A DNA stretch of 64,000 bases from Bryoerythrophyllum caledonicum. Taxonomy: Eukaryota > Streptophyta > Bryopsida > Pottiales > Pottiaceae. Location: the NCBI GenBank assembly GCA_963971425.1, contig OZ020514.1:39655158-39719157 (forward strand). The letters run 5' to 3'. The notes beneath the pieces were generated by a model that was given only the letters and a program-made list of their open reading frames with translations, was not told where the DNA came from and ran no database searches. This document shows, piece after piece, positions 31,249 to 60,575 of this stretch (its first letter is position 1; the number at the start of each line of letters is the position of its first letter). The position numbers were made by a program, and so were the translations under genes.

Positions 31249-32308
31249 AACACCATATTCATTATTTTGGGAGATTTCCATGAATTTAGGAGGTACACGC
31301 TCTTGAGTAATCCAAATATTTTACTATAGTGATGAAACAAAACATGATTAGAATAGAAGTACAACATCTTTAATTGTAGACTTTATTCATAATATGATAT
31401 GACGTGAAATCCATTCAAATAATTATGTCCAATTTAGGTGTTCGTGAAACATGTAAAATAAAAAAAGTGTTGATTAAGAGGAGAAGATACAACACATATT
31501 AAACAATAATAAAAAATAGGACCAACCTCAGTAGTAGAATGCGTTTTCCCACTTAGAGATTGGAGCTTGTTCTCATTATTTCCGACCTTTGCAACAGGCC
31601 GACACGTAGTAGGAATTGAGGGCATTTTCTCTGATGGCACCATCGTAGGTGGTTGAATTACACCAGCAAATGTTTGAAGCGCGTGATCCTATGACGTAGC
31701 ATCAAAGGGAGTTAAAATGCAACTTGTGCATATTTAGCTCTATTCGAGCTGAATGTGCACATGACCAAAAAAGACCTAGGACAAATACAAAGAAGGGGAG
31801 GGGGGGAATACCATGCTACACGGGGAAAGAGACAATGATTCCTCATGTCCGCGACCAAGCACTTGGTCACCTTTTCCACAAAACCTATCAACACCGAGGG
31901 ACCCCAAAATTCAACGAGGTTGAAGAATAGAACTGGAGGCAACCATTCGAATGCAAATATTTGGTGGGGGGTTGTATACTTCATCTTCTTCAATTGGAGC
32001 CATCGAAGAGTCCATCAAATAATCTGCTGCTCCGAGAAAGTACAAATCATTCTGTTTTCGTGGAATTCGATATCCACAATCTTCAGACTTCAAAACAGGA
32101 ATCCATGGTGGCAATACAACAGTTTATTTGAGAAAATGGTAAACGGCTCTTTTTCAAACATGGAAGCTAGGAAAGAACAAAAACATACGAACCCAACAAT
32201 AACAAACGAAAAATTACAAACAAATATTAAAGAACTGGCAACTGCCACTTGAATTACAAGATATGGACAGTATAACACATCAACACAATTATGTTTGATA
32301 CCAGAGAA
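31249..32308. other. Left subterminal region of element 1
   Basis: AT-rich DNA lies between the left TIR and the 3' end of the FCP1-like gene. One decayed palindrome (TTTAGCTCTATTCGAGCTGAA) occurs at about 31,732. The small ORFs (for example 31,845-32,252 plus) show no domain and overlap each other in several frames. Confidence 0.5.
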
Positions 32309-33104
32309 CTATGAATTTGCAAGCCCATGAGATATCATAATTGCGTGCGTTAATTCCATGTTTTCTAAGTTGTATGAATCCGAGCAAATTGTCGGACGAC
32401 CAAAGGGATTCTCTCGCCGAAAAGATTGCAACCGTATCTCTACACTACTGTGGAGCTTTTGGAGCCACGGAAGCAAGTCATTGAGGAGGAACTTATCGTT
32501 CCATCCATCCCCTTTGTAAGACCAAGTATCCGCAAGAAGCACATTCTCCAGATCATTACGGACGTGCTTGTACGGATTGTCATCTATGATGATGGTATTC
32601 TCTTTTGTAAAGGATCCACCCTTTCCAGTAAAAAGGCCTTTCGACAACGTCTTCAGAAATACCTCCTTATCCGAGTTCTTAACCTTCAGATATTGAGGTA
32701 CATTATGGATCACAACAGTTACGACTCTCCTACAATGGTCTTGCCCAAGTATGACTTTTGATGAGGCCGCTTTCAGGAAGAGGTAATTGACGATGCTACT
32801 AGTGGTGTTTAATTTCATCGAACTCGAGACCGACATCGATGCAAACTTGGAAACAACATCCAAAAATGCCTTGCAGCCTGGATGAACATACACTAGCTTT
32901 GGACCGACCTTGGCTCGAACTTTTACCGAGTGTGGCAGAGAACATGCATTAAAGGCTTGCGCATCAGACTATCTTACCAATCCAAGAATGCCTTGTGAGA
33001 ACTTCGAATTCCATTAAATCAGCGTCTACTGGAACGTGGAAAGACGAGTTGTCGCTTGACAAATCAAAATCATCATCGATTCAGGCACCGGTTGAAGTGT
33101 CCAT
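32309..33104 (-). pseudogene. FCP1-like phosphatase of element 1, catalytic exon lost
   Basis: ATG 33,104 lies in a short exon (MDTSTGA, TGA, then DDDFDLSSDNSSF...) ending at the donor ATTG-GTAAGA near 32,985. Its sequence resembles the start of the transposase at 51,097. The main frame, through VGPKLVYVHPGCKAFLD, has NTIIIDDNPYKHV (the DD motif of HAD phosphatases) and LLNDLLPWLQKLH, and ends at TAG 32,309-32,311. It aligns along its length with the intact gene at 36,817. The exon with the DxDG nucleophile is missing. The W-S motif has changed to SVSSSM. It is therefore expected to be catalytically dead. Similarity to the pseudogene at 58,416 stops abruptly at position 32,870 (…PGCK). Confidence 0.7.
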
Positions 33105-33238
33105 CTCGGCACTGCAAAGTTAAGGCGAAAGTGTAGTTAGTTGACGTACTACAATAGTACTCCAAGGTTCATCCCACATCAATCAAAGTGAACAAAAAAA
33201 TAGCATCATTGTTCATGTCCACGACTAGGTGAAAACAA

Positions 33239-33422
33239 TGCACATTCAGCTCGACTCGAGCTGAATATGCAGAACACATACTGTGCATATTCAGCTCGAA
33301 CCGAGCTGAATGTGCACTGCTTATTCAGCTCGGGTTGAGCTGAATGTGCACTACATATATTTTGTAAAAATATTCATAGCATGTTCAATGTACATTCAGC
33401 TCGAGTCGAGCTGAATGTGCAC
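33239..33422. promoter_or_regulatory. TTCAGCTCGAGTCGAGCTGAA palindrome cluster, arm A
   Basis: Four palindromes lie at 33,241, 33,285, 33,323 and 33,389. They have core AGCTCGA-S-TCGAGCT, extended to GTGCACATTC...GAATGTGCAC. They are in the leader about 140-320 bp upstream of the ATG at 33,104, in a presumed 5'-UTR intron. Confidence 0.85.
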
Positions 33423-34379
33423 AATATATTCTATATCTGGAATTAACGGCGACAATATCGGGCACAATTGATGATTGCTTAAACGAAGAGTACTGAATCA
33501 AAACCTGAAGCATTCATACCAATAAAAACTACCCACTTTGACAGTTGCAAGAACATATATGTCATACTGACATACAAATAAAAAAACGAATCCCTAAACC
33601 TGTACTAAGGAGGTGATTGTGTCGACGCCAAAGTATCACCTCCTTCCTACAACTTTTTCATTACATTGAAAATGATAGTATCAAATGTGCGAACCAAATG
33701 CCAAGTAAATCACCATAAAGTTTAGACAGAAGTCACTTACAAATGGTCCGATTGCGTGCACCAAAACGTCTTGAATGAAGAAGGAAGAGAAAACCCTACT
33801 CTTTGTCACGGCCGCAGCGACCATTCACGACCACACACCTCCGCATCTCTAAAAATTCCAAACACAACTAAGTTGACCTAGAATAATGTATCCACTTCTT
33901 GTACAGAAATTTGACTTCGAATGCAATAGGTCTTTCAAATGTCAAGGCGTACTTCGAGACAGTATAGATTCACGAAGGCTTGCCGAGTATTAGTAAGGTG
34001 TAGAGAGAAAGAGAGAGAGAGAGAAGAGGTTGGGGTTATTGACCAGGTCGAACAAATTGCCGTTAAGAAAAGAGCGGGAATGACATCACGTTTGGCGGGG
34101 AGGAGCTATTCCAAATAAAACATCTTCCAAAATTGACCAAAAAATTAACAACCACATAAGTTTCTCCTCATATCTCGATGTAATGGAAGTTTCTATTCAC
34201 ATGATCAATTAAGGTTCTGGATTGGGGTTATGGGTATCAATTTAAATCTGCAAGAATCAATAATTTTAAATTTAAGGTATAGAATTATGTATCAATTTAA
34301 GGTTATCAATTGGGGTTATGGGTATTTGATTACGGTCATTTATTTTCGTATTAAAGATATTGGATATGACTAGATTATA

Positions 34380-34665
34380 AAAGTAAAGATTTAGGTTTAG
34401 GGTTCAAATTGCATTTTGACATTGAGGGTTTAGGGTTTAAGGATTAGGATTGCAAGTCCATGGTACGAAGTGTAAATTATAGGGTTTAGGGTTTCGGACT
34501 ATACAATTCTATAATTAGATTTATGGATTAGGATTTAGGACTTAGGTTTAAGGATTTAGTTTTTAGGGTTTAGGGTTTATATTTTATTGTTTAGGTTTGA
34601 TGATTGAAAGATTAGGGTTTAGGATTTTAGAGTTTAGTGTTTGAGGTTCAGGAGTAGGGTTTAGA
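34380..34665. repeat. Interstitial TTTAGGG-type repeats
   Basis: Many degenerate TTTAGGG units (TTAGGGTTTAGGG, TTTAAGGATTTAG) occur here. The same tract, inverted, occurs at 56,625-56,935 in arm B. Another CCCTAAA tract is at 49,560-49,690. The degeneration and the repetition in transposon arms argue for element-borne sequence and not a chromosome end. Confidence 0.75.
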
Positions 34666-35336
34666 TTAGCATCGAGATTACCACTGAATCAAAATGTCCT
34701 TTCAATAAGATTGTTCATCGTATCAAAATTGAATTGTGCCTTGGTATTGATTGAAGAAAATTCATTATATATCACCTAAAGATAAGATTTAAGAACTCAC
34801 TACTTCATCTCATTTGTTATGAATTAATATCTACTCCTTTGAGTTGACTTTGCAAGATGATATTGTCTCATGCGATATTGGTTCACTTGATATTATTAAT
34901 TTATGTGTTATATAATTCAAATCATCTTTGACCCCAAAGGCTCAAGAGTCCCCTCGAAGGATTCTAAGAATTTTTGGAAGTTCCTATAGAGTCAATTTAT
35001 AAGTTTTTTGGTGTCGGCTCTAATAGCGCATCCGTATCCGTCGATCGCAACATTATGCAATTGTTGCCATTATGGACATAAGTTTGAGTGCCTTCAAAAA
35101 GTTATGATTGCAATGTTTTTTAATGTCATTCAAACATATTGCAAGTTGATGTGTAACTTTGCGCACTTGCAAAAGTTTGGTTCCATCACTCTTCCCTTTA
35201 TTGCAAAAGGTACTACCTTACATATGCATTCTTTCACACAAAATTCATGCGTTACATATTATACATAAGTATTTTCTACTATCTTTTCTTCCACATGAAT
35301 AAGGGTCAAAGATCACATGCGTATGTAAAAACATTT
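34666..35336. other. Central spacer of element 1, left of element 2
   Basis: AT-rich with no supported gene. It ends with ATTT (35,333-35,336), the left target copy of element 2. It continues at 54,743 on the other side. Confidence 0.6.
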
Positions 35337-35628
35337 AACACCATATTCGTTATATTGGGAAATTTCCATGACTATGGAGAAATATGGTTGTTGAAGTATC
35401 AATAAATATAGACATTTGTAGGTGCAAAGCATAAAGACAATGTATCGAGAATACTGTATTTTTTACCATGGATGGACCAAAATAGCTGATTGTCCAAGAA
35501 AGTGGTAACGATAAAGGAAGCATATACTATTAATCCAAGCTTTATTCAAAACTCCATGAAAAAAAGTCACACACAACACTCATTTACCTCGACGCAAAAC
35601 ACAATCGCCCTATTACTAATCAAACAGT

Positions 35629-36510
35629 CTAGGGAGTCCCTCCATAAGCCTCTATACGCGTCTTCAGAAAAGCCCTCTGACGTTGCCGAGTCCATGTTGC
35701 GCCATTCTCTTGCATTAATGGACTCTCAAGAAGACGCTGCAAACCCCGCCTTTGCACCTCGTCCGTGTTTGATTTGGGCAGCGAGTGACGGCGGGTGGGA
35801 GCAGAAGGAGAGCATTTGATTCCAACAACATTTCTTGAGAGAATACGGGGGCGAAGACATTTACCAGATGGTTCTCGCACAATAGGCGCCACAAACAATC
35901 CAAATAAATACACTTTAGGTCGAATACACCTACACGACAACACAAAAAAACTATATCATCAAGATCCATCCTAGTGCATTTTAGCTCAAATGGAGCTAAA
36001 ATACAGAAGGGGAAATTCACAAAGCTCATTTAATATCCAATGAACAAAAACAAGCTCAAATGAAGCAAAACTACAAGAGTGCAAGGTACCTCAACAACAA
36101 ACCAAGACTCTCTAGGCAAGAACGACTCAATAGTGCAATAACTTGGAGGTCAGCATAACACGCATCGTGAGCGAGCGGTGGTGAGTGGCATCCCTTAAAC
36201 CGTCATAGAGAATACGCTTTGCCGGAATACAATTATCCAGGTTTAGGCGCGGAGATCCCGGAACTGAACGAGGCCACTGCGGCGAAGGTGAATTGTTCCT
36301 TTTATGAATTGGCTCCCGCGCAATAGGGCTTTCAACAACTCCGTCGTCCACTGCCATGGTCGAATAATCCATGGTTGACTGCGCGGTTGCAGCAGAGTGC
36401 AACAAAAGCCTTTTACTCCGAAGGGAAAGGGCGAACTCATGTGGGCCCAACAAGGAATCCACGGACGCCCGACAATCACAGCCCTGTAGAAATTTCAACA
36501 AAAGTGACAC
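35629..36510 (-). CDS. Unassigned exons of element 2 (low confidence)
   Basis: Two minus-strand frames, 36,510-36,127 and about 35,930-35,629, have biased composition. One carries VVESPIAREPIHKRNN and SPSPQWPRSVPGSPRL; the other FVAPIVREPSGKCLRPR and SAPTRRHSLPKSN. The repeated (S/A)PI-REP motif suggests two related exons of one disordered protein. A decayed palindrome (TTTTAGCTCAAATGGAGCTAAAA) lies between them at about 35,978, as in other introns of this element. They lie 3' of the FCP1-like gene; whether they belong to it is unknown. Confidence 0.3.
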
Positions 36511-36816
36511 TCACATACCTCAGAACAATAGATAAAAATTCCAATCATTAAAAAAAGGATGACATTTCACCAGTAGTAGGTATCCAATCCGCACAATAAA
36601 TTCAGTGGAGAAACATCACCATTTGTATTATCAAAAAATATATACAAAACACGGCCCAACAAAATTTATAAAATGGAGCTGCAGTCAATCAAAACACTTT
36701 AGCTCCATTCGACCTAAAGTGTATTAAGGATCTAAGCGTTTCCAACCACATTAGGAACGGAGACTCTGATAGGCTTGAATTGCGTTACAAATACTCGTAG
36801 ACTGACCACACGTCTT

Positions 36817-37970
36817 CTAATCATTATAGAACATCTCCCGACCCGAGGGATGTTGAGCACGGTACTGCGCTAGACCACCCAAAAATTGATGAAGGTCAAA
36901 GAGATATGGTAGCAATTCCTCCAGCAGTACAGAATCATGTCTCGCGCCATCATGGTTGTGCGACCATGACGGAAGAAGAAGGACGTTCTCCGGCAAATTG
37001 AGGACATTCTTAATCGGGCTATCGTCAATGACAAGCGTATTTGCCGGAGTATACTCACGGCCCAACCTATTAAAGAGATGGTTAGATAACGTCTTCAAGA
37101 AGATGTCCTTCTGAGTGCCAAATTCCTTCATGTAGATTGTTCTGTTACCGACTCTACGCTCGGGAACCCTATCGCAACTCTCCTGACCAAAGATCCTGAG
37201 AGGATACACAGAACTATGGTGAAAAAGATATTGACATATCTCACGTGTTGTAGATTCCATCATTGAACTCCAGATCGTGATGGTGGCAATCTTAGACAAC
37301 TTCGTAAGGAATTCAGCACAACCAGCGCGCACCTGAACAAGCTTAGGGCCTACTTCGGCCGGCAGCGAGGCCGAGTGAATGGACGGGATAGAGTCCCTGG
37401 ATCTCCTGGCCTGCCACGATGGCTTACAAGTGCATAGAATCCCATTTAGGTCCAGCACAACATTCAACCATCTGCCCTCGGAATCTGAATAGACTCTAGG
37501 TATTTCTTCTAAATTACTGGCACCACTTATTGATTCCTCGCAGACCTGGTTCGGAAACGCCAGGAGAACAAACAATGTTACTAAAGATTCATTTACAACG
37601 ACAAGTCAACATAATGTAGAACGAAGAGAGCAAACGGGGGGGAAGCAACATGGGGAAGCGCAGAGTGTGGATAGTGTTAGAAGAGCACCTCGAGAACTTC
37701 ATCGTCTTGGAGCAATTTGTTTCGGACCCCCATCGATTCCAACGAAACTTGCACGGTGTCAAGGGCCCTCGAGTGCTCCAAAACCATTTGGGGGCACGGT
37801 TCCGGGACAAGAAGAGCGGGCTCCTGGACAGGAGAATCACGATTGATCTCGTCTACGAGCACGGCCGAAGATTGGACGACATCCTCTACGACTGGGACTG
37901 CAGTTTGGACGACCTCATCTACGACTGGTTGAGCAATCGCGTCATCACCAAAACTAAGATCTGAAAAAAT
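36817..37970 (-). CDS. FCP1/NLI-interacting-factor-like phosphatase of element 2
   Basis: Two exons are likely. About 37,970-37,689 encodes an acidic Val/Asp/Glu-rich stretch (VVDEVVQ... VVEDVVQ). A main exon, 37,545-36,817, follows a CCAG acceptor. It shows the family motifs in order: VVLDLNGIL (HAD nucleophile motif, usual DxDx(T/V) read here as DLNG), VRAGCAEFLTKLSK, ATITIWSSMMEST, KDIFLKTLSNHLF, NTLVIDDSPIKNVL (acidic motif III), LPSWSHNHDGARHDSVL and a TAG stop. The second Asp of DxD is replaced by Asn (D-L-N), a change shared by every copy in this window, so activity is uncertain. Family members act on phospho-Ser/Thr of nuclear proteins. The donor of the first exon (GAG-GTGCTC) is weak. 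The upstream gene ends close by, so the start is not defined. The frame has no internal stop. Confidence 0.7.
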
Positions 37971-38159
37971 TCAACAACTTCAACCCATCAGCTCATGCGC
38001 ACATTGGACACTGATACAATGTCAGATGTCAAGCAGTTTAGCTCGAGTCCAGCTAAAGTGATCACTGAGCACTGTAATATTAACAAAAATACTGGAGTAC
38101 AAAATTGGACATTTACAAAATGTTCTGCCTCTATACATTCGCAACTACGTTACACTAAC

Positions 38160-41100
38160 CTGACGACATCAACAACAGAATCTTCCCGAGCGGGCGACTT
38201 CGGGGAGGAAGAGGGGCGGGTCGGCGTGGACGGGGGATCAGGCAGCGATTGAGCCCCCATGGAGACGGGGGACGAACCCGCCGGCGACGGCATAAGCGAA
38301 CCGTGAGGCAGACTCCTAGTCTCATCGTCACTTGAGATTGGAGGCTGAGGGATTGTAGAATTCACTACGGTTCGTGTCGTGGCGACAGGAGGCATAGTAG
38401 CCGTCATGAATCTCTGCATCATGAGCATAATGTCGTTATGCCTCTAGTCCTGGTCCCTCTTCATCTCCTCGTCACGCCTCCGCTGCATATCCCTGAGCTC
38501 CTCGTCACGCTCCGCCAGCCGCTGCTCCATCAACCTCATCCGGGTGGCCTCCTCTTCGAGCTTCTTCTCGAGGACGATAAACCTGATGTCATCGTGAGCA
38601 CTACTCGCCGTTGCCAACGGTGAGCGGCCGGTTGCGCTGGCAACTTTCCTCTTCTTGGCTGCGGGGCGAGCGGATGACCCACCCAAGGTCGGAGCTGAAT
38701 GAGGCCTCTCGGAGATATCAAGCGATTCCAACTCCACGAAATCGAGCCGCTGCCGCGAGGTGCCCATTGTCTCTCCCGCTTCAAACTGAGAGCCACTATG
38801 AAGCTCCGCCGGAGTGTTGGTATCGAAATCGTCATGGGAATCGGCATCAGGTGTGACCGTACTGGTGCTCGAGCACACACCAATGGGGCTCGGGACCACA
38901 TCCTCCTCCTCTTCCTCATCGACGAGATCGATAATCACTTTTCCCTTCCCCTTGGCAACAGCCTCTCCAAGCTCGGGAAAGATCTCCGCGCTGATGTGAT
39001 ATGAACCAATAACAAAATCGGCCCGATCCAACGTCAACGCCACATCCTGGGCGTCGTCCAGGTCCTGCTCTGAAACAATACATTCACAGTCAGAGAGGGG
39101 ATCAACAGTTAAGCTTGAGTCGAGCTAAACTGCAAGGATACTCACTACACTAGCAGTCAGTAATTTCGTCCCGCAATACAGCTGGACAGTAGAATCCCCT
39201 TTCTTGCAGAACAGCTCCAGAACCTTGATGAAGAACTCCATTCTCAGCTCGTTCATGTTCATGGAGTACGCCAGGTCGTTGTACTTGCGTAGCTTGGTAT
39301 GCAACACATGCTCCGGAGCAGCGTAGATCTTCTTCACGGCCGGAATCTGCGTAAGTTCTTTCTTGAAGAGAAAGAGGAGGCGAACCGGGTCGAGAGCGTT
39401 GTTGGTCTTCGGCGCGAATCCCCCGAAGCGCTCGTTGTCGGAGGGAAGATACTTCGACTACAGGACGTCGTACGCATGGCACAACGACGGGCCCTCAGCA
39501 AACGCTGTCACTTGAAGGTGTGACTCCTCGTCGCCGCAAATGAAGAGCCACGCTGGAAGACCGGTGAGAGAAGGCTGCCCTTTCGATGCAAACATTGTCA
39601 TGAACTCGTCGAAGAAGGGCTTCTCCAATGACGACGTCGCCTTCCCTGCGAACCCAGGGATATTACGGAAGTCGATGATGCCAAGCTTCACATTGCAGCC
39701 CAAGTTACGCCACGAATCCGACGGCCATCCACCGAGCGAGTTGGTTGCCGCCTTGTATGGACGAAAGTGCAAGGCCCCCACAGGTGCAACGAACCGCCCC
39801 CGCACATCGAGGAAGACTCTGAAGAACTCCTTCGCATACGGAGAGAGATCTTCACATTTGCAGTTGCGAAACTGCGTCTGCCTTGAGTTTGCATAGTACG
39901 AATCCGGTGGACCCCAATCTAAGAGGGCACGCTTTGAGGCCTTGCTGACGTTGTAGTTCTTCTTGAACTTTCGCCAGTTGGAACGACTGTACGCCCTAGT
40001 GCTGTTGAAGAAGGCGAGCTCCGGCCTGATCAACTGAAGCTCCATCCAAGCTACCTCCTTCCTCTTCCTTCGATCGACCCAGTCCCGGGCGCTATAGCAA
40101 TCCTCCAGCACTGATTGCGGCTGCTTTACAACCACCTTAGGATAAGGTAGTTTTCGCGATGGCCCTGATCGATTAAGAATATGCTTACACAGCGGTGCGT
40201 GATCAGCCTCGGTCATATTGCCGAAAAACTTAAAGAACTCGCGCGTCAATACCCCATCTTTCTCAGGCACCCAGGACTTGGCGTCCTTAAACTTTGACAA
40301 GGGCGACGTTGTTGAATCCACGTTCATGAGGTCGCCTTGTGCCGCCGAAGAGATGACATCCGACCAGAGCTTGAAGGTCTCATCGGACGAGGTGATAATC
40401 TTCACCTCGTTCGTAATCAAGAGCTCCTTCGCCTTTCCGGCTTTCTTGAGCGCTGACTGGCTTTTGGCGACGTCAATCATTGCGAAGCGCTCACGAACCG
40501 CGTTTAGAAATGGCTGTGCAGAACATTGGCAGTGTTGATTTAGCGTACAACCACAGAGGGAAAAAATCCAAACCAGCAGGACCCAAAAGTGCAGGTTAAC
40601 TCGAGTCGAGCTAACTTGCAACCGGAGAGTGTACACTCTAAGTGCTTGAATCTGTATACAGAACTATACTAAGAAGGACAAGCACAGAAGTTACCTCGAG
40701 TCGAGCTAAAGTGCATGACCTTGGATAAGATTAATTACCTCAAACTTCTTGTCATTGGCAATCTCCACTGCCGTTCTCCGACCTGATCTATGGGACCCGT
40801 GAATGCCTGCGGCGGAGTGCTTCGGCATCGGTCTTCCAGCTTGGATCCACAATGCGCGAGAGCCAAGGATATTTGTTGCCCACGTCGGCTTGAATTGGAC
40901 CAAGTGATTTACGCGATTATAATACGAGGAAATCTTCCTCAGCTTCTCAGGGTCCTCCGTCCAGACAATGTAACACTGCCATGTTCGGAAGTGCCTTCTT
41001 ATAACCTCCGGCACGGTACCGTTTATCATCGACTTTGATGCAGCAACGCTGTATTGGCCGTTGATGATATAGAAGTCACACTCGCTGAGCTCCTCAACCT

Positions 41101-42172
41101 TCATTGGCATATGATCGAGCTTGGGCATGACGCAGAGAGTTTGCTTCTCCGTCTTGTCCGGCATTTCGAGGTAGTAATGCTTCAACTCCTCCATACCCCG
41201 AGGTTCGAATGCACGGATCGTCCACTCCGGCGGTGCATTATGCAGCCTCATCACATCAAGCTCGATCTTCATCTCTCTGTCTCCTTGGAAAAAACAGCTC
41301 TGACACTCCATCCAGAATTTCTGATATATTTGTTGGACGTTGGTGTAGTCTGTTACCTCTCCGAACCCGAGCGCCGAAGGGAGTTCCAACAGTGCAGAGG
41401 CCATCGAATTGGCCAACTCTTCTTCTGAAACGAGTTTCGTCTTCTTCCTGGAAGAAGTCTCCGGCTTCTTGGCAGCTGAGCGCTTGTTGACGGGAGACGC
41501 TGACAGCGTGTTGCGCAGGGTGCTTCGACTTGCTCTTGCACCTGGAGTTCTTACCGGTACCGATGCTTGACTTATATTGTGGCTACCTGTTACGGCACCA
41601 GAAACTACCGAAAGTTCTATTGGGCGCCTAGACGCGATTAATTTTGCCTTCTCAAGAGCGGCAAAAGTATTGATTCTGGAAAGAATGACGCGGAGTTTGT
41701 TCGCTACAGCCTTCGCTTTCAGCAGCTGACCACTACTAGTCTCCCATTTCTTTTGGGAGATTTCGTGGTCGACCTGAGCCACTATGTCATCAAACTGTGA
41801 CCCCCTAAGAGAACTGACTAAGTCGAAGATACAGAAGGGAGACGAAGTATTGTTCACTACAATAGTGAACATATAAGGAACGAGAGACTCAGTGGTTGTC
41901 TCACACGACATCTTCACTATATCGTAATCTTCATGGACTACATTAATAATTTTGGTCTTGAAGTCGGTGTGCTGGGGTTCATGGATATCACCAGTGAAGG
42001 TCTGACCAAACACTAGATTCTCTGTGTAGGGGGCCCACAGCAGCGTCCACTTTAGTGTCATCAAAGGATCCTTGAGCTCCCAGCAATCTAAGTGGTTGTT
42101 GTCGTCTCCATCGTCATCGTCAATGTCGACAGGCTTTGGCTGGAAGAAGTGCTGCAACTGAGACACCATCAT
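38160..42172 (-). CDS. ParB-like / DNA-methylase-like element protein, three exons
   Basis: Exon 1 is 42,172-40,739. It starts MMVSQLQHFF 13 nt after a TTTGTGCAG acceptor and ends at donor GAG-GTAATT. Exon 2 is 40,513-39,146 and exon 3 is 39,067-38,160, so about 1,235 codons. Exon 1 has an acidic start, a basic Ser/Thr linker (about residues 220-265) and, near 41,040, FYIINGQYSVAASKSM followed by WQCYIVWTEDPEKLRKIS. This resembles the ParB/sulfiredoxin-fold signature (hhNGxHRxxAA). Exon 2 ends in ALDPVRLLFLFKKEL, then LFCKKGDSTVQLYCGTKLLTA, which recalls a DNA N4/N6 methylase motif I (DxFxGxG), degenerate. Exon 3 is acidic with a coiled coil (EKKLEEEATRMRLMEQRLAE) and a Ser/Pro tail. Two TAG codons (39,458-39,460; 38,441-38,443) interrupt otherwise open frames. 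Each intron holds a palindrome. Function is inferred by motif only. Confidence 0.6.
40514..40738 (-). promoter_or_regulatory. Intron 1 of the ParB/methylase-like gene with two palindromes
   Basis: Clean GT-AG borders (GAG-GTAATT; CACAG-CCATTT) join the flanking exons in phase 0. It contains AACTCGAGTCGAGCTAAC (about 40,599) and a copy at about 40,691 (TTACCTCGAGTCGAGCTAAA). Intron 2 (39,068-39,145) has one at about 39,110; the intron after exon 3 has one at about 38,037. Confidence 0.7.
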
Positions 42173-42370
42173 GTCCCTCTCAGATCTGCACAAACACGAA
42201 ATGGAGCACCAATATAAGATTGTTTTAATGATCATCCGATTAGGACGGCGAGGTCACACATTAGCTCGACTCGAGCTAATGTGTAACTAAATACAAGTAT
42301 GTTAATAATACTCTGCAACAAAATCTAGTCAATTAGACCGTTCTCTTAGACGCTTACAATCAACTCATGC

Positions 42371-42836: not shown

Positions 42837-43126
42837 ACATGAGTTGGGTAGTCGATATCATTGGTTTACTATACCTTTGGAATGTTTAAAGTTTGAGTGT
42901 TGTTGTGTTTGAGTTGTTAAAGTTTATTGTCATACACTTTAGCTCGATTCGAGGTAAAGTGTGTTGGCTTTACTGGAAGGCCATGACATTTTTCAGACCG
43001 AGAGTTTGAGAGTAGTTATTATGATTACTGTTCCTGCAGCCGGCTTTGGCGCAACCATAGACGTAATAAGTCGAACATTTTTGTTCGACTCAAGCTTTAG
43101 AGGGCCTCCATTGTGCACTATTGACC

Positions 43127-43472: not shown

Positions 43473-43619
43473 CATTGAAGAGCTTATTTATTGCAGTTTG
43501 TGCAGATCCGTCTTTCGTTATATGATATTGAAGGCGTAGGGTTTAGGGCTCCTGGGTGTGAGCATGGATTTTACCTTTCAGCCATTGATTATGAACCTAA
43601 ATCCCAGACAAATTTTGCT

Positions 43620-47529: not shown

Positions 47530-47533
47530 ATAA

Positions 47534-49559: not shown

Positions 49560-49690
49560 AAGGACCCTAAACCTTGAACCCTAAAACCTGAACTTAAATA
49601 CCAAACCCTAAATCCTAAACCCTAAACCCCAAACCCTAAAAACCCTAACCCTAAACCCTAAACCTAACCCTAACGCTAACCCTAAGCGTT
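49560..49690. repeat. Interstitial CCCTAAA-type repeats
   Basis: A run of CCCTAAA/CCCTAA units occurs with variants (AACCCTAAAAACC, CTAACGCTAACC). It lies just upstream of the transposase leader, the same relative position as the tracts in arms A and B of element 1. It therefore seems to be a conserved promoter-proximal component of the element. Confidence 0.75.
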
Positions 49691-50314
49691 ACCCTAAAAC
49701 CTTGTATATAACTCGCATGTGCGAGTATATTCGAGGTATGTACTCTTCCTTATTTTAGTCAGCCAGGAAATAGTTGATTCTGTTTCCCGCTAAGATTTCG
49801 AATTTGCACCTTTTTAGGGGTTGTGGAAAAGCCCCCCCGCCAATTCTGAAGTTTCCTCCCGCCAATTCTGAAACGGTCGTGTGTCCGTGAGTGACCTCGC
49901 CGATCCTCGAAAACTTTCTTCATTTCTTTCCTTCTCACTTTGGTTGCTGTGCAAGGTTGTTGTGGAGAGGCTTGGAGGTAGAAGAACTGTCGGAGGTTGA
50001 GGAGGGTAACATCTACAGGTTACGCACGGTTGAGCAGGGCGCTTGCGCGAGGCAACAACGCACCAGTTGTCTTCTTCATAAGGTATACAATGTATACTTC
50101 TTGCATTCTCCGTGCACAGTCTCTAGCAATTAGGATGTGACAGTGTGTAGGGTTATTGCGGTGGTTCCAATTGCTACTGTGATTTTGAAGCATCACTGCG
50201 AGTTTCGTGACGACTAACGGGAAGATTTGGGTTGTAGTACACAGAGAGTCAGATTCATATGCTGAAGAGTTTTATCATATGAATCCCTAAAAAGACGCCA
50301 AAAATCACGGAAGG

Positions 50315-50775
50315 ACAGTTTAGCTCGAGTCGAGCTAAACTGTCTTACCATCTTTCCAAGGACAATTTAGCTCGAGTCGAGCTAAACTGTCTTACCATCT
50401 TTCCAAGGACAATTTAGCTCGACTCGAGCTAAACTGCCGATATATATTATTATCAACAGTTTAGCTCGAGTCAAGATAAACTGTCCTTGGAAAGATGGTA
50501 AGACAGTTTAGCTCGACTCAAGCTAAACTGTCTTACAATATTGTATTGACAGTTTAGCTCGAGTCGAGCTAAACTGTCATACCTTCTTTCCTAGTACAAT
50601 TTAGCTCGACTCGAGCTAAACTGTCGATAAATTTTTTATCGATAGTTTAGCTCGAGTCGAGCTAAATTGTCTTACCTTCTTTTGAAGGAAAGTTTAGCTC
50701 GACTCGAGCTAAACTGACATACCTCATGTCCTATTTCTGTTTACCTCGACTCGAGTTAAAATGACAATGAGTCTG
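50315..50775. promoter_or_regulatory. Palindrome cluster in the transposase leader
   Basis: Ten sites lie at about 50,318, 50,366, 50,411, 50,458, 50,506, 50,552, 50,601, 50,644, 50,693 and 50,740, mostly GACAGTTTAGCTCGA...CGAGCTAAACTGTC. Spacers are partly inverted copies of each other (TTACCATCTTTCCAAGG at 50,344 and 50,392; its complement at 50,480), giving a higher-order palindrome centred near 50,440. Weaker sites follow at 50,890-50,990. All lie between the promoter side and the ATG at 51,097, which follows a TGCAG acceptor, so they probably sit in a 5'-UTR intron. Confidence 0.9.
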
Positions 50776-51096
50776 ATAGTCATAAATTTAGGTCGGGTCG
50801 GGCTTAGTTGTCTTTGTCAAGGGTGAAATAATTTCATATTCAGATTATAGCTAATTGCATGAAATTTTATACTTGTCATCTTATACCGCATGAGTTTACC
50901 TCGAGTGGAGCTAAATTTATTTGGTCTGCCATGTCAGCTCACTTGAATCATAGTTTTTTTTCAAGCGCCAGACCTTACCTCGATTCGAGATCAATTACCC
51001 TCTTCCTATGCTTCTTCATAAATGTCTATTCCTACAAGGCGTTTACCCATTTTTATTTGTCAGGGTTATTTAATAAGTATCTCATTGGAATGCAGA

Positions 51097-53753
51097 ATGT
51101 CGTCTTCGGAGGGCGACGATGTTCATGTTGACACTCCCGTGAATCCAGACCTTCCTGAGTTTGATGTTATTCCTCGCCGTCTCTGGGTCGAGCTGACTGT
51201 TTCGCTTCACAATGATTCGGGTGTTTGCGTTGCGGAGGGGTTGGTTCGCAATGTCCGGTCCAGTGCACTTCAAGGTTCCCTAGTCTTCTTGGGGATTCGA
51301 ATGTTGTAGTACAAGTGTCCAGTATTTTTGTTTTAGACGAAGCTCCTGATGAGTGGAGGTACTCGTTTAAGACCTGGCCTATTCAACAAGTCTTCTTAAA
51401 CGGTGTGAGTCTCTTCCATCATTGCCTTCGGGACATTTACAATGTCTGGTTGGTTGAGCGTAACAGACCTCTAGGTGGGAGCTCCCGTTCGTACGACAAT
51501 TCCTCAAGGAATACACGTCCAATTGTGTCCAGGAATGCTGAATTTCTCATGACCCCTCTTTCCATTAACGCTGTTGCGAGCAATAGTTGTTGCAGTTAAA
51601 ACTGTGTTCAACATGATTACTTTCTATCGAGTACTTTCTATCGGAATGCAAAGGACGCTGCCGCTGGTCATGCGGCTCAACACCATGGGAATACCGGTTT
51701 GCGTAAGCCTAGAGGTCATACGGTTGTGGCTACTGCCGCTCTTGGAGCCATTCTCGATAGACATGCGGACCACATGCCTCACAAGTCTCGTGTTCTCCCA
51801 TCTGGCGAGAAGGCTGTGGCAAAGGTCCTCCCTGCAAGTTTTAAGTGGAAGGATCAGATACCGCTTCTTGATGATCATCTCGCTGATTGTGGATTGCCGC
51901 CAATCTCAACCTCAAGCTTGAGTAAGATTCGGCGTGTGAGCTTCCCTGAGTACTATGCCAAGAAAGTTGGAGACAACTTTGCCCGTTGTTCTACTCGTGA
52001 CAAATACCAGGATCAGAAGAAGTTTGCTCAACCTGGAACACAAGCATCATTGCTATGGCAAAAGAAGATGCAGGTTCACATCGATTCTGCCTTCTCACAT
52101 CGGGACTTGTACTACGTGAACCGATTTCGATCAAAGTCGTCGCCCCAAGAGGTTCTTACCATCATGCATGATAAGATGGATCACTCAAAGACCGCCTCCC
52201 CGATTTTTTCACATAAAACAAAGCACCTAGATGGGCTTATGAAGTTGCCTCTTGCAATCACAGGTATGCTTGCCCATAGTCATGTGGACCAACGTTACGC
52301 CCATTACGGCCTTGATTTGTACTCCCATGATGCCAATTACACAGTCAGGTCGTTTGCAAAACTATTGCGTGACCTGGAGGCGCCTCCGAAGTCATCGTCC
52401 CGGCAACTCTTTCCAGAATCTAGTTCTCATCCATTGTATGCGGCGGTATTACGGAGTGCGGAGATGTGTTTGGATCCATTAGGGTAGATTCCAGATATCC
52501 TAGTTCCAAGGAGGCCTTTGCCACCTATATTGAATGTACAAATGGACAATGCAGTTGGTGATAACAAAAATAGATTTGTTTTCTGTTTTTGGTCTCTCCT
52601 TGTTGCAAAACGCATCTTCCGCGAGGTGTATGTTAACTTTATGCTAGTTGGGCATACACATGATGATATAGATGCATTATTTGGACGTTGGAGTAGAACA
52701 CTGAGGAAGGAGAGTTTTCCAACCATTCCTTTGCTCATGAGGTCGTTTTTGAAAAATGAGAGTGTTCCCACAATCCCGCATCTCATCCAAGAGGTTCCTG
52801 ACTTTAAGAAGTTCATTGGGGGTATGATTGCGGACGGTGATGAAGCTTTGGAGGGTCATACAAAGGCTCATCAGTTCAAGTTTTATATGGACTCTAGTGG
52901 TTGTCCGGTAATGAAGTATAAAATCCTTTGTCATGATGAGGATTGGCTTCCTAAGGGAGGAGAAGGTAGTGGCATCAAATTGTGGAAGGAGGATTCTGAA
53001 GGGAGGTCTTTATGGCCTCGCGGAGAACCTGATGCATTGAAGCCTTCTATGATGCGGCATCTCCATGAGGTGGTGAAGGGACTTTCAGGATTCATCGATC
53101 ATTGGGAGCAATCATCGCGGGAGTCTGTTGAAGCCCGTTTGCATTTTGAGCCGCTATCGTATTATTGGCGCGATGTTAGAGATGCTCTGACACTTCCAAT
53201 GGATACACCGATATCATTGGAAGACGGCTTTTGGCCAACGACGCGAATTGCCCATGCCATTGAAGATGAGTTCTCAGCGGAGGGTGAGGTTCGCGAGGAG
53301 TACCGTGAAGATGAGCATTTTGTTGGCCAGAGACGCGATCGTCCACCTCCTTCTTTTAGAGTTGGTCGTGATCTTTTTGCTGGCTATTTTGTTGCATTGC
53401 GGCCTTGTGATGGGGACGAGCGCCCATTTTGGATTGCTCAAGCAGTTTCAGATCCTAATTCTAACCCGGATATGCCATACACCGTACGTATCCAATTCTT
53501 CCGCCCTATATCGCGCGATTGGGATGTTATGAAGTTCTATAAAGATTGGGACACAGATTGCAACCTTCGTTGGACAATTGAAAAGGGGATAGCCATTACG
53601 TGGGAGAGTACCGATTCAATCTTGATAGCATGGAAACCTAGGTCTTCAAAGAGGGATGGAGGTCATGTGCAAGATTCAACTACAAAAATTCCGAAGGGAC
53701 AAGTAGCAATTATCAAGGCCTCCTTGGAAGCACTTGCTAGGTCCGAATCGTAA
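51097..53753 (+). pseudogene. DUF7869-type transposase of element 2, nearly intact
   Basis: ATG 51,097 (MSSSEGDDVHVDTPVN) directly follows an acceptor. One frame change is needed near 51,290. TAA occurs at 51,598-51,600 (CCS*NCVQHD) and TAG at 52,485-52,487 (PLG*IPDIL). Otherwise about 880 codons are open. Marks: a Cys motif CCSxNC, then KFAQPGTQASLLWQKKMQ, then the RNase-H-like core with NVQMDNAVGDNKNRFV (first acidic residue), FWSLLVAKRIFREVYV and the hallmark VGHTHDDIDALFGRWS. A C-terminal half follows, through WPRGEPDALK and a YFVALRPCDG region, to SES-TAA-TAG. DUF7869 proteins are transposase-like proteins in plants and other eukaryotes. The related pseudogene at 58,416 has CAA-TGA where this gene has TAA-TAG, so the final TAA may itself derive from a Gln codon. 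Only three lesions separate it from an open gene. Confidence 0.75.
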
Positions 53754-54738
53754 TAGACTTAGATAAATGGATTTCCTTTTCCTAGATTTTAGATTCTGAT
53801 GCGTAATACTTCATGTAGTATGGTTAGATCCATTGGTGCTGAGATTATAGATATTTGTATTTCATTAATTTACACTCCGTATGACTATAATATGTGATGT
53901 CAATGATTGCTATGAAATATTCTCTCCATTCTTTTTGTGTATCGGTGATAATTTGCAGTATGTTTTATTTTCTTTTTATAATAACAATGTGGTAAATTGC
54001 TTCTAGTCTTGAAACCAATAATACCAGTAATTGCCTTCATGGTGAATGATAGAAAGTAAATGTTGGGTCGCACTTTAGCTCTAGTGGAGCTAAAGTGTGA
54101 GCAAATCTTCTTATTTAGTTCAGTGTGCTTAGTAATGGTGCGCACTTTAGGTCAAGTGGAGCTAAAGTGTGTGGAATTTCCTTTTTGAGTTTATTGCACC
54201 TCTAAGTGATGGGGACACTTTAGTTCGAAGAGAGGTAGTGTGTGCAATTTTTTTTCCACTTGTGAGCACCATCATTTGAAACTCGTTATATATATTTTTT
54301 GCCAATGTGTATTCCACAAGGAGAATTGAAATTCTTTTAAATCAAAAAGGGCTCATCAAAATGTGTTTAGCTAATTTTCTTACAAGTGGATATTTGTCCA
54401 TCATTTAGCTCACTTTTAGCTAAATTGGAGCATGGTGTTAATCCGGGTTAGTAGGATCGAGTGTGAATATTTAGCTATTCATATTCAATGAACACATGTG
54501 GTATAAAAGAAGTGTCAACTAATGTGTTCTTCTTTTCAATATGATACTTAGATTCGTAATGTAATGTTATCCGCAGTACTTATTTTTCTACGGATTTCTG
54601 TAGAAAACATTACCTCCCAATTTAATGGAAACTCATATCCCTCCATATTGTAGAGTTTAGATGTGCACTTTAGCTCTTATTATCTACATGTGTTAATTTG
54701 GGAGTCACTAAATCTCCCAATATAACGAATATGGTGTT
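53754..54738. other. Right subterminal region of element 2
   Basis: A non-coding tail of the transposase gene with two or three TTTAGCTCTAGTGGAGCTAAA-type palindromes (about 54,074, 54,148, 54,222). The terminal GGGAGAT...TCCC hairpin and GAATATGGTGTT follow at 54,738. Confidence 0.65.
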
Positions 54739-54742
54739 ATTT

Positions 54743-56624: not shown

Positions 56625-58650
56625 GCCCTACTCCTAAACTCCAAGCACTAAACTCTAAAATCCTAAACCCTAATCTTTAAATCATTAAACCTAAATAATA
56701 AACTAAAACCCTAAATCCTAAAAACTAAATAATAAACCCTAAACCTTAAAAACTAAATCCTTAAACCTAAATCCTTTAACCTAAATCCTAAACCCTAATC
56801 CGTAAATCTAATTATAGAATTTTCTAGTTCAAAACCCTAAACCCTATAATTTACACTTGATACCATGGACTTGCAATCCTAAACCTTAAACCCTAAACCC
56901 TCAATGTCAAAATGCAATTTGAACCCTAAACCTAAATCTTTACTTTTATAATCTAGTCATAATCAATATCCTTAATACGGAAATAAATGACCGTAATCAA
57001 ATACCCATAACCCCAATTGATAACCTTAAATTGATACATAACTCTATACCTTAAATTTAAAATTATTGATTCTTGCAGATTTAAATTGATACCCATAACT
57101 CCAATCCATAACCTTAATTGATCATGTGAATAGAAACTTCCATTACATCGAGATATGAGGAGAAACTTATGTGGTTGTTAATTTTTTGGTCAATGTTGGA
57201 AGATGCTTTATTTGGAATAGCTCCTCCCCGCCAAATGTGATGTCATTCCCGCTCTTTTCTTAACGGCAACTTGTTCGACGTGGTCAATACACCCCAACCT
57301 CTTCTCTCTCTCTCTCTCTCTCTTTTTGCACCTTTCTAATACTCGGCAAGCCTTTGTGAATCTATACTGTCTCAAAGTACGCCTTGACATTTGAAAGACC
57401 TATTGTATTCGAAGTCAAATTTTTGTACAAGAAATGGATACATTATTCTAGGTCAACTTAGTTGTGTTTGGAATTTTTAGAGATGCGGAGGTGTGTGGTC
57501 GTGAATGGTCGCTGCGGCCGTGACAAAGAGTAGGGTTTTCTCTTCCTTCTTCATTCAAGACGTTTTGGTGCACACAATCGGACCATTTGTAAGTGACTTC
57601 TGTCTAAACTTTATGGTGATTTACTTGGCATTTGGTTCGCACATTTGATACTATCATTTTCAATGTAATGAAAAAGTTGTAGGAAGGAGGTGATACTTCG
57701 GCGTCCACACAATCGCCTCCTGAGTATAAGTTTAGGGATTCGTTTTTTTATTTGTATGTCAGTATGACATATATGTTCTTGCAATTGTCAAAGTGGATAG
57801 TTTTTGTTGGTATGAGTGCTTCAGGTTTTGATTCAGTACTCTTCGTTTAAGCAATCATCAATTGTGCCCGATATTGTCGCCGTTAATTCCGGATATAGAA
57901 TATATTGTGCACATTCAGCTCGACTCGAGCTGAATGTGCATAGAACATGCTATGAATATTTTTACAAAATATATATAGTGCACATTCAGCTCGACCCGAG
58001 CTGAATATGCACAATATGTGTCGTGCACATTCAGCTCGAGTCGAGCAAAATATGCATAGTATGTGTCGTGCACATTCAGCTCGAGTCGAGCTGAATATGC
58101 ACAGTATGTATTGTGCACAATTAGCTCGAGTCGAGCTGAATATGCACAATATGTGTCGTGCACATTCAGCTCGAGTCAAGCTGAATATGTACAGTATGTG
58201 ATGTGCACATTCAGCTCGAATCGAGCTGAATTTGTAGAGTATGTGTTCTGTACATTCTGCTCGAGTCGAGCTGAATGTGCTTTGTTTTCACCTAATCGTG
58301 GAGACGAACACTATTGCTATTTTTTTGTTCACTTTGATTGATGTGGGATGAACCTTGGAGTACTATTGTAGTACATCAATTAATTATACTTTCGCCTTAA
58401 CTTTGCAGTGCCGAGATGGACACTACAACCGGTGCCTGAATCGACGATAATTTTGATTTGTCAAGCAACAACTCGTCTTTCCACAATCCAGTAGATGCTG
58501 ATTTGATGGAATTTGAAGTTCTCACAAGGCATTCTTGGATTGGTAAGATAGTCTGATGCGCAAGCCTTTAATGCATGTTCTCTGCCACACTCGGTAAAAG
58601 TTCCAGCCAAGGTCGGCCCAAAGCTAGTGTATGTTCATCCAGGCTGCAAG
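56625..58650 (+). repeat. Inverted repeat arm B of element 1
   Basis: Reverse complement of arm A (32,870-34,665): the CCCTAAA tract, a CT-rich run at 57,301-57,322, GAAGTCAAATTTTTGTACAAG, the palindromes and the first coding exon are all shared. The similarity ends exactly at GGCTGCAAG (58,642-58,650), where the reading passes from the FCP1-like sequence into transposase sequence. Confidence 0.85.
57905..58285. promoter_or_regulatory. TTCAGCTCGAGTCGAGCTGAA palindrome cluster, arm B
   Basis: Eight sites lie at about 57,909, 57,981, 58,025, 58,073, 58,121, 58,163, 58,207 and 58,252, most extended to GTGCACATTCAGCT...AGCTGAATGTGCAC, with a recurring ~45-bp period. They lie in the leader upstream of ATG 58,416. 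Arm A retains only four, so the cluster expanded or contracted after the arms were duplicated. Confidence 0.9.
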
Positions 58651-59917
58651 CTATTCCTCCGCGCCGCACCTGAGTCTCTAGCTACAGCAAAACCTTTGCC
58701 GCCTTATTTGCATGTGCAAATGGACAATGCGGTGAGTGACCACAAAAATAGATATGTGATTTGCTTTTGGTCTCTTCTTGTTGCAAAGGGTATCTTCCGA
58801 GAGGTTTATGTTAATTTCATGCTTGTTGGCCACACACATGATGACATTGATGCATTATTCGGTTGATGAAGTATGGCTTTGAAGAAGGAGAGTTTCCCCA
58901 CAATCCGTTTGCTTATGAGATCATTTAAGGAGAACGAAAGTGTGCCAACAATCCCCCACTTGATTGAAGAAGTCCGGGACTTCAAGTTCTTTATTAGTGA
59001 AGGTATTGTAGGTGGAGATGAAGCATTGCAAGGCCATACAAAGGCTCACCAATTCAAATTCTATGTTGACTCCAATGGATGTCCCATGATGAAATACAAG
59101 ATTCTTTGTCATCAAGATGATTGACTTCCAAGAGAAAGGGGTGGCATCAAATTGTGGAAGGAGGATTCAATTGGGAGGTCTTTGTGGCCACGTGGAGAAC
59201 TACCTTCATTGGAGCCACATGCAATGCGCAATCTTCCTGAAGTGATTAAAGGTCTTTCTGGATTCATTTCATATTGGGAGCGTCAAGCACGTGAGGATCG
59301 TACAGGTGAATATCGAAGGCGATATGAGCCTTTGAGCTACTATTGGCGGGTAGTTAGAGAGTCACTTAGTCAACCAATGGACTTGCCCACCTCTCTACAG
59401 GATGGTTTTTGGCCTTCTAGTCGTATTGGTCAGACAATCGAGGACCAATTCACTAGTGTGGGCGCTGTTCGTGGGGATCATGATGAGGATGACCACTTTG
59501 TTGGGCAGAGTCGAGATAGGCCCCCCTTCTTTTCCGATTAATCGAGACATTTAATCAGGCTATTGTATTGCATTAAGACTTTGTGATGGAGATGAATGCC
59601 CTGTTTGGATTGCACAAACGTTCTCGGTCCCTAATTTGGATCTTGAAAGGCCTAATTCTATCAAAATATAGTACTTCCGTCCCACTTCGCACAATTCAAA
59701 TGTCCAAAGATGCTATGATGGATGGGCCTCTTCCAACGGTCTACAATGGACAATTGATGACGAGCAACTTCCGCAATGGGAGGACACCGGATCTTTGTTG
59801 ACTGCATGGAAGTCTAGAAGTAGGAGTGAATTTCCTGTTGTGAAGATACCTAGAAATCAAGTTCAAATCATTCAAGATGGTTTGATCAGGGATACCGAGC
59901 CGTCTTCTTCGCAATGA
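58416..59917 (+). pseudogene. Chimeric FCP1-leader/transposase pseudogene of element 1
   Basis: The first exon from ATG 58,416 (MDTTTGA, TGA, DDNFDLSSNNSSF) and the VGPKLVYVHPGCK segment match the FCP1-like gene in arm A. From 58,651 the sequence is DUF7869 transposase: HVQMDNAVSDHKNRYV, VGHTHDDIDALFG, then TGA-TGA where element 2 has Arg-Trp. Further lesions are TGA for Trp at 59,122, a frame change near 59,540, TAA near 59,553, and TAG for Gln (IQFFRP in element 2). It ends SSSQ-TGA at 59,917. The N-terminal half of the transposase, including the CCSxNC motif, is absent. Element 1 therefore cannot move by its own transposase; element 2 or another copy would have to act in trans. Confidence 0.8.
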
Positions 59918-60575
59918 TTTTTTAGTACAAAGACGTTGCTCTTATACTAGTATCTAAGAATGTGTGCATAAGATCAAAATATGTTGGCATGATTTAAGCT
60001 CGAATCGAGCTGAAAGTGTACACCCATTTCTTGTGGAGATTAATACATTTCAGAGTTTTGATATTTTGTTATTTGCTATGCTAAATGGTTTATCGCATAG
60101 GAATTGCTTGGGCACATTCAGCTCGACTCGAGCTGAATGTGTATGGCTTTCTTCTTGGAGAGAAGTGAATTCTGGGCTTGATGATTTGCCCTTTGATATT
60201 TGCTATTCTGAAATGTTTTATTGCATAGGAATTGTTGGAGCACATTCAGCTCGAATCAAGCTGATAGTGTGTTTCGATTCGAGAAATGCATTTTCGTGCC
60301 TTGACATTTGATCTTTCGATTTTGAATGATATTTGGAGTTGTAAGTGTTGCTTGCTTTCAGCTTGACTGAAGCTAAAAATGTACTTCAATTTCTTTCTAG
60401 ATTGATTTTAAATTGAAAATAATTCCGCACCTCCCATTTTAATGGACACCAAAATCGAAGATATTATTCAAAGTTTACTATGCAAATCACTAAACATTTG
60501 CATATTTAGGTTAGCTTAAGCTTTTCGTACTATTTTGGGAGGCTCCTAATCTCCCAATATAATGAATATGGTGTT
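59918..60575. other. Right subterminal region of element 1
   Basis: Contains three TTCAGCTCGA...GAGCTGAA-type palindromes (about 59,996, 60,117, 60,244) and one decayed one at 60,358. The sequence shared with the 238-bp MITE (GCATATTTAGGTTAGCTTAAGC) and the terminal TIR follow. Confidence 0.75.

Follow-up and report, generated by a model that had tools for sequence, protein, structure and literature searches.

In a 64,000-nucleotide stretch of the genome of the moss Bryoerythrophyllum caledonicum (contig OZ020514.1, positions 39,655,158 to 39,719,157 of the forward strand; hereafter the window), we observed three transposable elements inserted one inside another, named here E1, E2 and M. They are probably nested insertions of a single abundant cut-and-paste family that has probably been active recently and most likely forms a giant branch within the Sola superfamily; in this family the protein with the Pfam domain DUF7869 (PF25273) would be the DDD (three-aspartate) transposase. 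A previous sequence-only reading had proposed two nested giant transposons with terminal inverted repeats (TIRs) belonging to one family, and this proposal is supported by copies throughout the genome, exact target duplications, an empty site and the register of a satellite at the insertion point. That reading overlooked the third nested copy, M, as well as another conserved gene, the third of the family, which lies at 38.2-42.3 kb on the minus strand.

The outer element, E1, occupies positions 31249-60575 of the window (plus orientation; 29,327 bp, or about 9.9 kb without E2). Comparison of its terminal bases showed TIRs at 31249-31278 (plus) and 60546-60575 (minus), which agree at 27 of their 30 terminal bases when one of them is inverted, and its flanks read ATGG on the left (31245-31248) and ATCG on the right (60576-60579), a target duplication with one mismatch. 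Nested inside it, E2 (35337-54738, plus, 19,402 bp) matches at 28 of 30 terminal bases and is flanked by exact ATTT duplications at 35333-35336 and 54739-54742. For both elements the termini, sizes, coordinates and flanks given by the sequence-only reading proved exact. Inside E2 lies M, a miniature inverted-repeat transposable element (MITE) of 238 bp (47292-47529, plus) with 25 of 30 matching terminal bases, flanks ATAA/ATAA and one internal palindrome, of the kind discussed below, with a single mismatch in its core. The same MITE with identical flanks is also present in two large-element copies from elsewhere in the genome, copies A and B, so that its insertion is older than the spread of these copies.

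It had also been proposed that excision of each element restores a continuous flank, and this was found in both cases. The target site of E1 is a satellite, with a 163-bp repeat on the left (29099-31239) and a 164-bp repeat on the right (60579-63787); when E1 was excised in silico, a 162-bp satellite spacing was kept on both sides of the join, which matches satellite stretches across the junction at 82-86%. For E2, the joined 240-nt flank with one ATTT was searched in the genome, and in all 40 places scored (the best of 84 first-look candidates) a single match spanned the junction at 92-98% identity. Because its joined flank occurs uninterrupted elsewhere in the genome, E2 inserted into an existing member of the family. 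E1 itself contains an inverted duplication, with a left arm at 32865-34659 and a right arm at 56626-58655 (85-96% complementary), and a frame at 58552-58866 begins within the right arm and continues into DUF7869. E1 is therefore non-autonomous, since its DUF7869 gene is a fragment fused to a second, inverted copy of the element's left part. A scan of the window against Rfam gave no matches. In the assembly as a whole, the chlorophyll a/b-binding family has 58 matches, and two antenna-protein fragments agree with a moss host. The first matches the PDB chains 7xqp_9 and 8htu_9, from moss photosystem structures with the moss-specific Lhcb9, at 314-315 bits; among the 60 chains shown, other single-domain chains reach 179 bits at most and the multi-domain chains of 9vfj 278. 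For the second fragment, 7xqp and 8htu again supply the best single-domain chains, by a small margin.

To evaluate how widespread the family is, we searched the 437-Mb assembly containing the window for the terminus AACACCATATTC, which has 1283 plus and 1295 minus matches (2,578), versus 19 and 14 (33) for the reversed control. An extended terminus, in which the eighth upstream base is A, C or G but not T, gave 517 and 550 matches and none on either strand for its control. The first 100 of these 1,067 extended matches (the first 24.8 Mb of contig C1) were then taken for pairing, in which each plus end was joined with every minus end less than 60 kb downstream, wrong partners included. An exact 4-bp duplication was present in 18 of the 30 pairings, with a mean of 1.5 for shuffled partners, and none had a duplication of 5 bp or more. 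Six of the exact pairings measure 163 bp, two 237 bp and ten 18.3-36.5 kb, and the duplications are varied (CTGT, CATT, TAAT, ATTT, TTTT and others); the motif AWWT was seen at 15 of the 100 listed flanks, where about 3 were expected. Thus, both the existence of further inverted-pair copies and the 4-bp length, which the sequence-only reading had put forward, hold in the genome. Copy A (C2:3000348-3020128) has 19,781 bp, CAAA/CAAA flanks, all three genes of the family and a 1032-aa DUF7869 frame. Between copies A and B the identity is 98.5-99.5% along aligned stretches of 12.3 and 4.4 kb, a near-identity which suggests that the family was probably active recently.

In E2 the DUF7869 gene (50832-53753, plus) is degraded, with broken frames and a TAG stop at 52485. 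The frame at 51600-53753 matches PF25273 with E=5.3e-37 after this stop and with E=2.5e-4, below the cut-off, before it, and further broken DUF7869 frames lie upstream of 51600. In E1 the truncated remains (58552-59541, plus) comprise two open frames: the one at 58552-58866 matches PF25273 with E=1.8e-24; the one at 59125-59541 has no Pfam match, resembles the E2 frame on reading and lies in a region that aligns with copy B at 70% in DNA. The gene layout attributed to both elements, an FCP1-like gene on the minus strand at the left and DUF7869 on the plus strand at the right, is indeed shared, although the DUF7869 gene of E1 is merely a fragment. Part of the E2 protein has at least 99 scored copies in the genome including itself, the others 93-97% identical; being the best of 3790 first-look candidates, these give a minimum. 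An open frame of 1032-1042 aa with a stop-free matched part was counted by hand in 19 of these 99 copies. Furthermore, in all 30 loci fetched from the 99 (the window's included) the right terminus of the family lies about 1 kb past the DUF7869 frame, and 28 distinct 6-base flanks follow these 30 ends. The domain as such has at least 150 scored matches in the genome (the best 150 of 3611 candidates), all above the cut-off, and the proteins form several groups that are roughly 34-68% identical.

Two relatives outside this assembly were found in contigs binned as bacterial metagenome-assembled genomes, and both were rejected as prokaryotic relatives and taken as eukaryotic contamination. The first (L073, CADCWO010000071.1), in a contig binned as a cyanobacterium, has a 963-aa DUF7869 frame 78% identical to the window protein, together with similar palindromes; its isolate name suggests soil crust, and the contig is probably moss DNA. 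The second (L074, JAAENN010000018.1, 2643-6389), in a contig binned as Shimia, has a 1249-aa frame with a DUF7869 match of E=7.5e-32 and is probably eukaryotic DNA as well; an OTU-like N terminus considered for this protein had no Pfam support. Among 90 candidate stretches in viral contigs, no relative of the DUF7869 transposase was confirmed. In the comparison with L073, the DUF7869 gene showed a ratio of nonsynonymous to synonymous changes (dN/dS) of 0.15/1.40, about 0.11. Aspartates 191, 194, 316, 356 and 358 (numbering of the window protein) are invariant in 12 aligned rows chosen from 50 loci plus the window. The distant L074 protein keeps 191, 194, 316 and 358 but not 356, which points to aspartate 358 as the third acid. 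The RNase H fold of the protein is a prediction. The role of DUF7869 as the transposase of the family, proposed by the sequence-only reading, is well supported by its linkage to the right terminus and by a divergent family with its own terminus and 4-bp duplications, described next; its catalytic activity is predicted.

Two further DUF7869 groups could be traced to right ends by comparing two copies of each (...CATGTT and ...GGTGTT), and the corresponding termini are AACATGG... and AACACCGG..., so that the three DUF7869 families examined have 5'-AACA ends in common. The AACATGG terminus has 84 matches in the genome and none for its control. For pairing we used 80 of the 84 termini, those on large contigs, and neighbouring plus/minus pairs within 60 kb, which excludes four termini on small contigs and pairs of 62 and 101 kb; 15 of the 21 resulting pairs had an exact 4-bp duplication and none one of 5 bp, with a shuffled mean of 1.0. 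Since this family shows both features, the 4-bp duplication and the 5'-AACA ends accompany DUF7869 beyond the family of the window. The AACACCGG terminus has 7 genome matches. In two AACATGG elements, C3:28589982-28600791 and C7:2639043-2654431, each flank is an exact inverted copy of the other over the 8 bp seen, in place of a direct duplication, and these may be fold-back events or assembly artefacts.

Besides the transposase gene, large copies carry two genes on the other strand. The FCP1-like (NIF) gene is represented in E2 by an exon at 36817-37605 (minus; PF03031, E=8.8e-17), which corresponds to a 284-aa frame in many other copies, and in E1 by a frame at 32309-32968 (minus; PF03031, E=1.6e-10). 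It has at least 146 scored copies in the genome including that of E2, the others 85-95% identical (the best 146 of 2022 candidates). Active FCP/SCP phosphatases carry DxDx(T/V), and the E2 protein reads DLNG at this motif; phosphatase activity is therefore doubtful. The third gene, ORF2 (38150-42253, minus), consists of about three coding blocks (40706-42253, 39125-40663 and 38150-39124), whose frames are broken here; two introns are predicted from copy A. Its first block has at least 84 scored genome copies (the best 84 of 1732 candidates), most of which show one TAA in the aligned stretch; in copy A this TAA precedes the first Met. No Pfam family matched the ORF2 blocks above the cut-off, and no DNA-binding domain was recognised in them by Pfam, where one helix-turn-helix match had E=0.02, below the cut-off. 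Outside E1, the window contains two more FCP1-like frames on the minus strand, at 9843-10292 (E=5e-5) and 15066-15458 (E=2.9e-6), the latter adjoining a 519-bp inverted duplication (3997-4515/15266-15784); other element families here seem to carry FCP1-like genes as well.

The three genes recur together. Among the 99 DUF7869 copies, 55 have an FCP1-like copy on their upstream side, encoded on the opposite strand and no more than 30 kb away (in 52 cases the distance is 13.3-20.4 kb), while the null, in which positions on small contigs were left in place and 25 Mb was assumed for chromosomes without a known length, had a mean of 3.5. As for ORF2, 64 of the 84 copies are followed on their own strand by the FCP1-like gene, at most 12 kb downstream and usually at a distance of 4.1-4.2 or 4.9 kb; in 46, DUF7869 lies upstream on the opposite strand, no more than 30 kb away, and both partners are present for 35. 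It should be noted that these lists contain the best-scored copies of each gene, so an absent partner is no evidence of loss. The elements had been called cargo-bearing, which is misleading: because the same order recurs, the FCP1-like gene and ORF2 are not random cargo, and opportunistic cargo is ruled out by this order and by dN/dS below 1. The gene linkage likewise disposes of the idea that MITE ends merely happen to flank unrelated DNA and so mimic giant elements, or that the giant spans are segmental duplications: MITE ends are numerous, some of the 30 pairings are clearly wrong partners and, at two of the 30 DUF7869 loci, the flanks are those of another locus (tandem or duplicate contigs), but the ten giant spans with exact 4-bp duplications, the recurrent gene order, the empty site and the distinct flanks beyond the right ends leave this explanation with virtually no probability.

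Regarding classification, the sequence-only reading could match these elements to no named superfamily, a view that is probably wrong. Several known groups can be set aside. CACTA/EnSpm elements have CACTA termini and 3-bp duplications, and are ruled out by the AACACC termini and 4-bp duplications found here. Elements of the piggyBac, Kolobok and Sola3 groups make TTAA duplications and are ruled out by the variety of duplications observed. Ginger elements have an rve-type integrase; in the proteins scanned with Pfam, neither an integrase nor a KDZ domain gave a match up to E=1, and DUF7869 was the only match above the cut-off in the transposase frames. Sola, in turn, is described, in the parts of the sources available here, as having a DDD transposase and 4-bp duplications, with a size of mostly 2-9 kb, in some cases above 15 kb, and as present in the moss Physcomitrella (PMC10741241), for which Sola1 in particular is listed (PMC9033089). 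The TIRs of the reported Sola elements range from 11 to 1124 bp and their termini are variable (PMC10741241). The duplication length, the invariant aspartates, the size range and the moss host fit these partial descriptions, and on their basis the family is most likely a giant branch or variant of Sola, not a new superfamily. The alternative, that DUF7869 elements make up an undescribed superfamily of their own, marked by termini of the AACA(C/T) type and 4-bp duplications and merely resembling Sola, seems improbable in view of the same features. It draws on the shared 5'-AACA ends of the three DUF7869 families, set beside the variable termini of Sola, and on the literature: a search of incomplete coverage found no paper naming DUF7869, PF25273 or IPR057191. 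The Pfam name, however, is a recent one, and it may be that the database lists Sola proteins under a different one. Among the papers found on FCP1-like genes and DDE transposases, none, judged by title and the start of the abstract, deals with an element that combines the two.

Several observations weigh against a Sola-like family driven by DUF7869. The placement in Sola goes by published description of the superfamily. The AlphaFold model of the DUF7869 protein, built from a three-row alignment, reached a mean confidence (pLDDT) of 28; a phmmer search against PDB gave no match at E up to 10, and the best hit of a profile search against PDB was a ribosomal protein with E=0.054. No exact 4-bp match was found in 12 of the 30 pairings, a set that includes wrong partners by construction, nor in 6 of the 21 AACATGG pairs (one with a single mismatch and two with inverted flanks), and AWWT is a bias and no rule. 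Among the matches listed, 44 of the 99 DUF7869 copies had no FCP1-like partner. The dN/dS values of the FCP1-like gene (0.025/0.064; 0.40-0.48) and of two ORF2 blocks (0.027/0.067, 0.40; 0.016/0.061, 0.27) are below 1 but come from few changes and include the decayed window copy; L067 and three FCP1-like comparisons with L068 were left out of these calculations. Finally, the exact palindrome described below is present in none of four 404-bp MITEs.

We nevertheless favour the Sola-like reading, under which the family would work as follows. The DUF7869 protein, of about 1,030-1,090 aa, would act as a DDD transposase on the termini of about 28 bp that begin with AACACCATATTC, excising the element and reinserting it with a 4-bp stagger, which would leave the 4-bp target duplications with their AWWT-like bias. 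Autonomous copies would be a fixed three-gene unit, in which the FCP1-like gene and ORF2 share a strand and the transposase gene is read from the opposite one, and E1-like copies and MITEs lacking a working transposase would presumably be mobilised in trans. More speculatively, the ORF2 or the FCP1-like protein might bind dispersed palindromes and so protect or activate the element.

These palindromes are built around AGCTCGANTCGAGCT, with 52 copies (up to 2 mismatches) in the elements of the window and none in the remaining 34.7 kb. They form a cluster of the TTCAGCTCGANTCGAGCTGAA type adjoining the FCP1-like gene of E1 (33236-33421) and arrays upstream of ORF2 (43107-43475, CACTTTAGCTCGANTCGAGCTAAAGTG type), upstream of DUF7869 (50311-50768, CAGTTTAGCTCGANTCGAGCTAAACTG type, 47-bp period) and upstream of the DUF7869 fragment of E1 (57905-58281, ATTCAGCTCGANTCGAGCTGAAT type, 45-bp period). 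The sequence TTYAGCTCGANTCGAGCTRAA occurs at 4,835 exact places in the genome and its control at none; 42 of the first 50 places lie between family ends, in spans that make up 2.4% of 9 Mb; the remaining 8 are no more than 8 kb from a single family end. In copy A all 36 palindromes (15 clusters) fall outside the predicted coding blocks, which make up 37% of the element (p about 0.001), and both predicted ORF2 introns contain them. The arms differ among arrays, yet stay complementary: at arm positions 1 and 4-9 of 55 window copies (up to 3 core mismatches) the observed pairing was reached in at most 1 of 500 shuffles, a figure inflated by tandem relatedness. Of the listed MITEs of 163 or 237 bp, 8 of 9 hold one exact palindrome, and in L073 the core is present at 9 places if up to 3 mismatches are allowed, including a single exact match. 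A second palindrome, RCCGGAGATCTCCGGY, has 1,205 genome places, clustered among the 50 listed, against a control of 0. Its 12-base centre CGGAGATCTCCG occurs four times, and GGAGATCTCC six times, in the window, all within the first 16.3 kb (1034, 1111, 1197, 3017, 14688 and 16269). This part also holds the two other FCP1-like frames, and the second palindrome may mark another element family. In the literature search, judged by title and the start of the abstract, no paper was found on an element with subterminal palindrome arrays of this sort.

Several roles can be considered for the palindromes, all of them tentative. It is possible that they are internal or subterminal sites of transposase assembly, for which the TnpA sites of CACTA elements offer a comparison, or that they function as hairpins at the DNA or RNA level. 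The single palindrome kept by most gene-less short MITEs and arms that covary as those of a hairpin would agree with this, but arrays also lie deep inside 20-kb elements and in predicted introns, not only by the ends, and the 404-bp MITEs do without the exact motif. Somewhat doubtful is the idea that they are recognised by an anti-silencing protein specific to the family, either ORF2 or the FCP1-like protein, as a convergent analogue of Arabidopsis VANC that would bind the non-coding motifs of its own element and strip repression. The VANDALs, to which VANC belongs, are another transposon group. This idea would account for the concentration of exact copies in TIR-bounded spans, for their position outside coding blocks and for the existence of a different palindrome, and VANC21 motifs, in the part of the source available, are likewise family-specific, tandem and found in introns, intergenic and terminal non-coding DNA (PMC5735166). 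However, the ORF2 blocks show no recognised DNA-binding domain, the covariation of the arms exceeds what a fixed motif needs, and coding DNA would exclude such inserts whatever their role. In its widest form, which we regard as unlikely, each giant-element family here would have its own perfect palindrome in introns and spacers (AGCTCGANTCGAGCT in this family, CGGAGATCTCCG in a neighbouring group), read by the ORF2 and/or FCP1-like protein, as an anti-silencing self-recognition code that arose independently of VANC and lets transposons of 20-35 kb reach high copy number; this is the part a specialist would not expect. Correction of quasi-palindromes is an established mutational process, and symmetric arms produced by such template switching, followed by tandem duplication and without function, would fit the arrays with 45-53-bp periods, whose counts are not independent, but are quite unlikely given the core shared with the 78%-identical L073, the position outside coding blocks and the retention in most short MITEs.

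Elsewhere in the window, at 22111-28225, recurrent GGGCGGAGAC-type repeats and inverted pairs surround a 638-aa frame (24556-26469), possibly another element.

Should DUF7869 prove to be the Sola transposase, a function could be assigned to a Pfam family that has no name yet and is represented in this genome by thousands of candidate copies, and many gene models of mosses would have to be counted as transposon genes. With its numerous giant elements, near-identical copies and MITE partners the family offers a rich system, and its palindromes raise a testable question: does it mark itself by a family-specific motif read by its own protein, as VANC does in Arabidopsis?

Comparison with known systems, limited to the parts of the cited texts available, places the family closest to Sola, with which it shares 4-bp duplications, TIRs, occurrence in moss and, in some cases, a size above 15 kb (PMC10741241); the DDD-type transposase described for Sola has a predicted counterpart in DUF7869. 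The AWWT duplications given for Sola2 (PMC3627910) find a parallel in the bias seen here. On the other hand, 18-36 kb is large for the stated Sola range, and the FCP1-like gene, ORF2 and the dispersed palindromes do not appear in those parts of the Sola descriptions. A near counterpart in size is Sola1-1_Ec32 of Ectocarpus, a 21.5-kb Sola1 element whose accessory gene and transposase gene lie on opposite strands; the accessory gene encodes ParB-like and methyltransferase domains, whereas the accessory genes here are FCP1-like and ORF2 (PMC12477816). The KDZ and EnSpm giants of Ectocarpus are also similar in size, accessory genes and fixed nested insertions (PMC12477816), but differ from our family in that the latter has a DUF7869 transposase, 4-bp duplications and non-CACTA termini. 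Lastly, in the VANDAL/VANC system an element-encoded protein binds short motifs that lie in introns and other intergenic or terminal non-coding DNA, often in tandem, and differ between families; the VANC motif has 9 bases (PMC5735166) and ours is a palindrome of 15-27 bp. The likeness is one of motif distribution.

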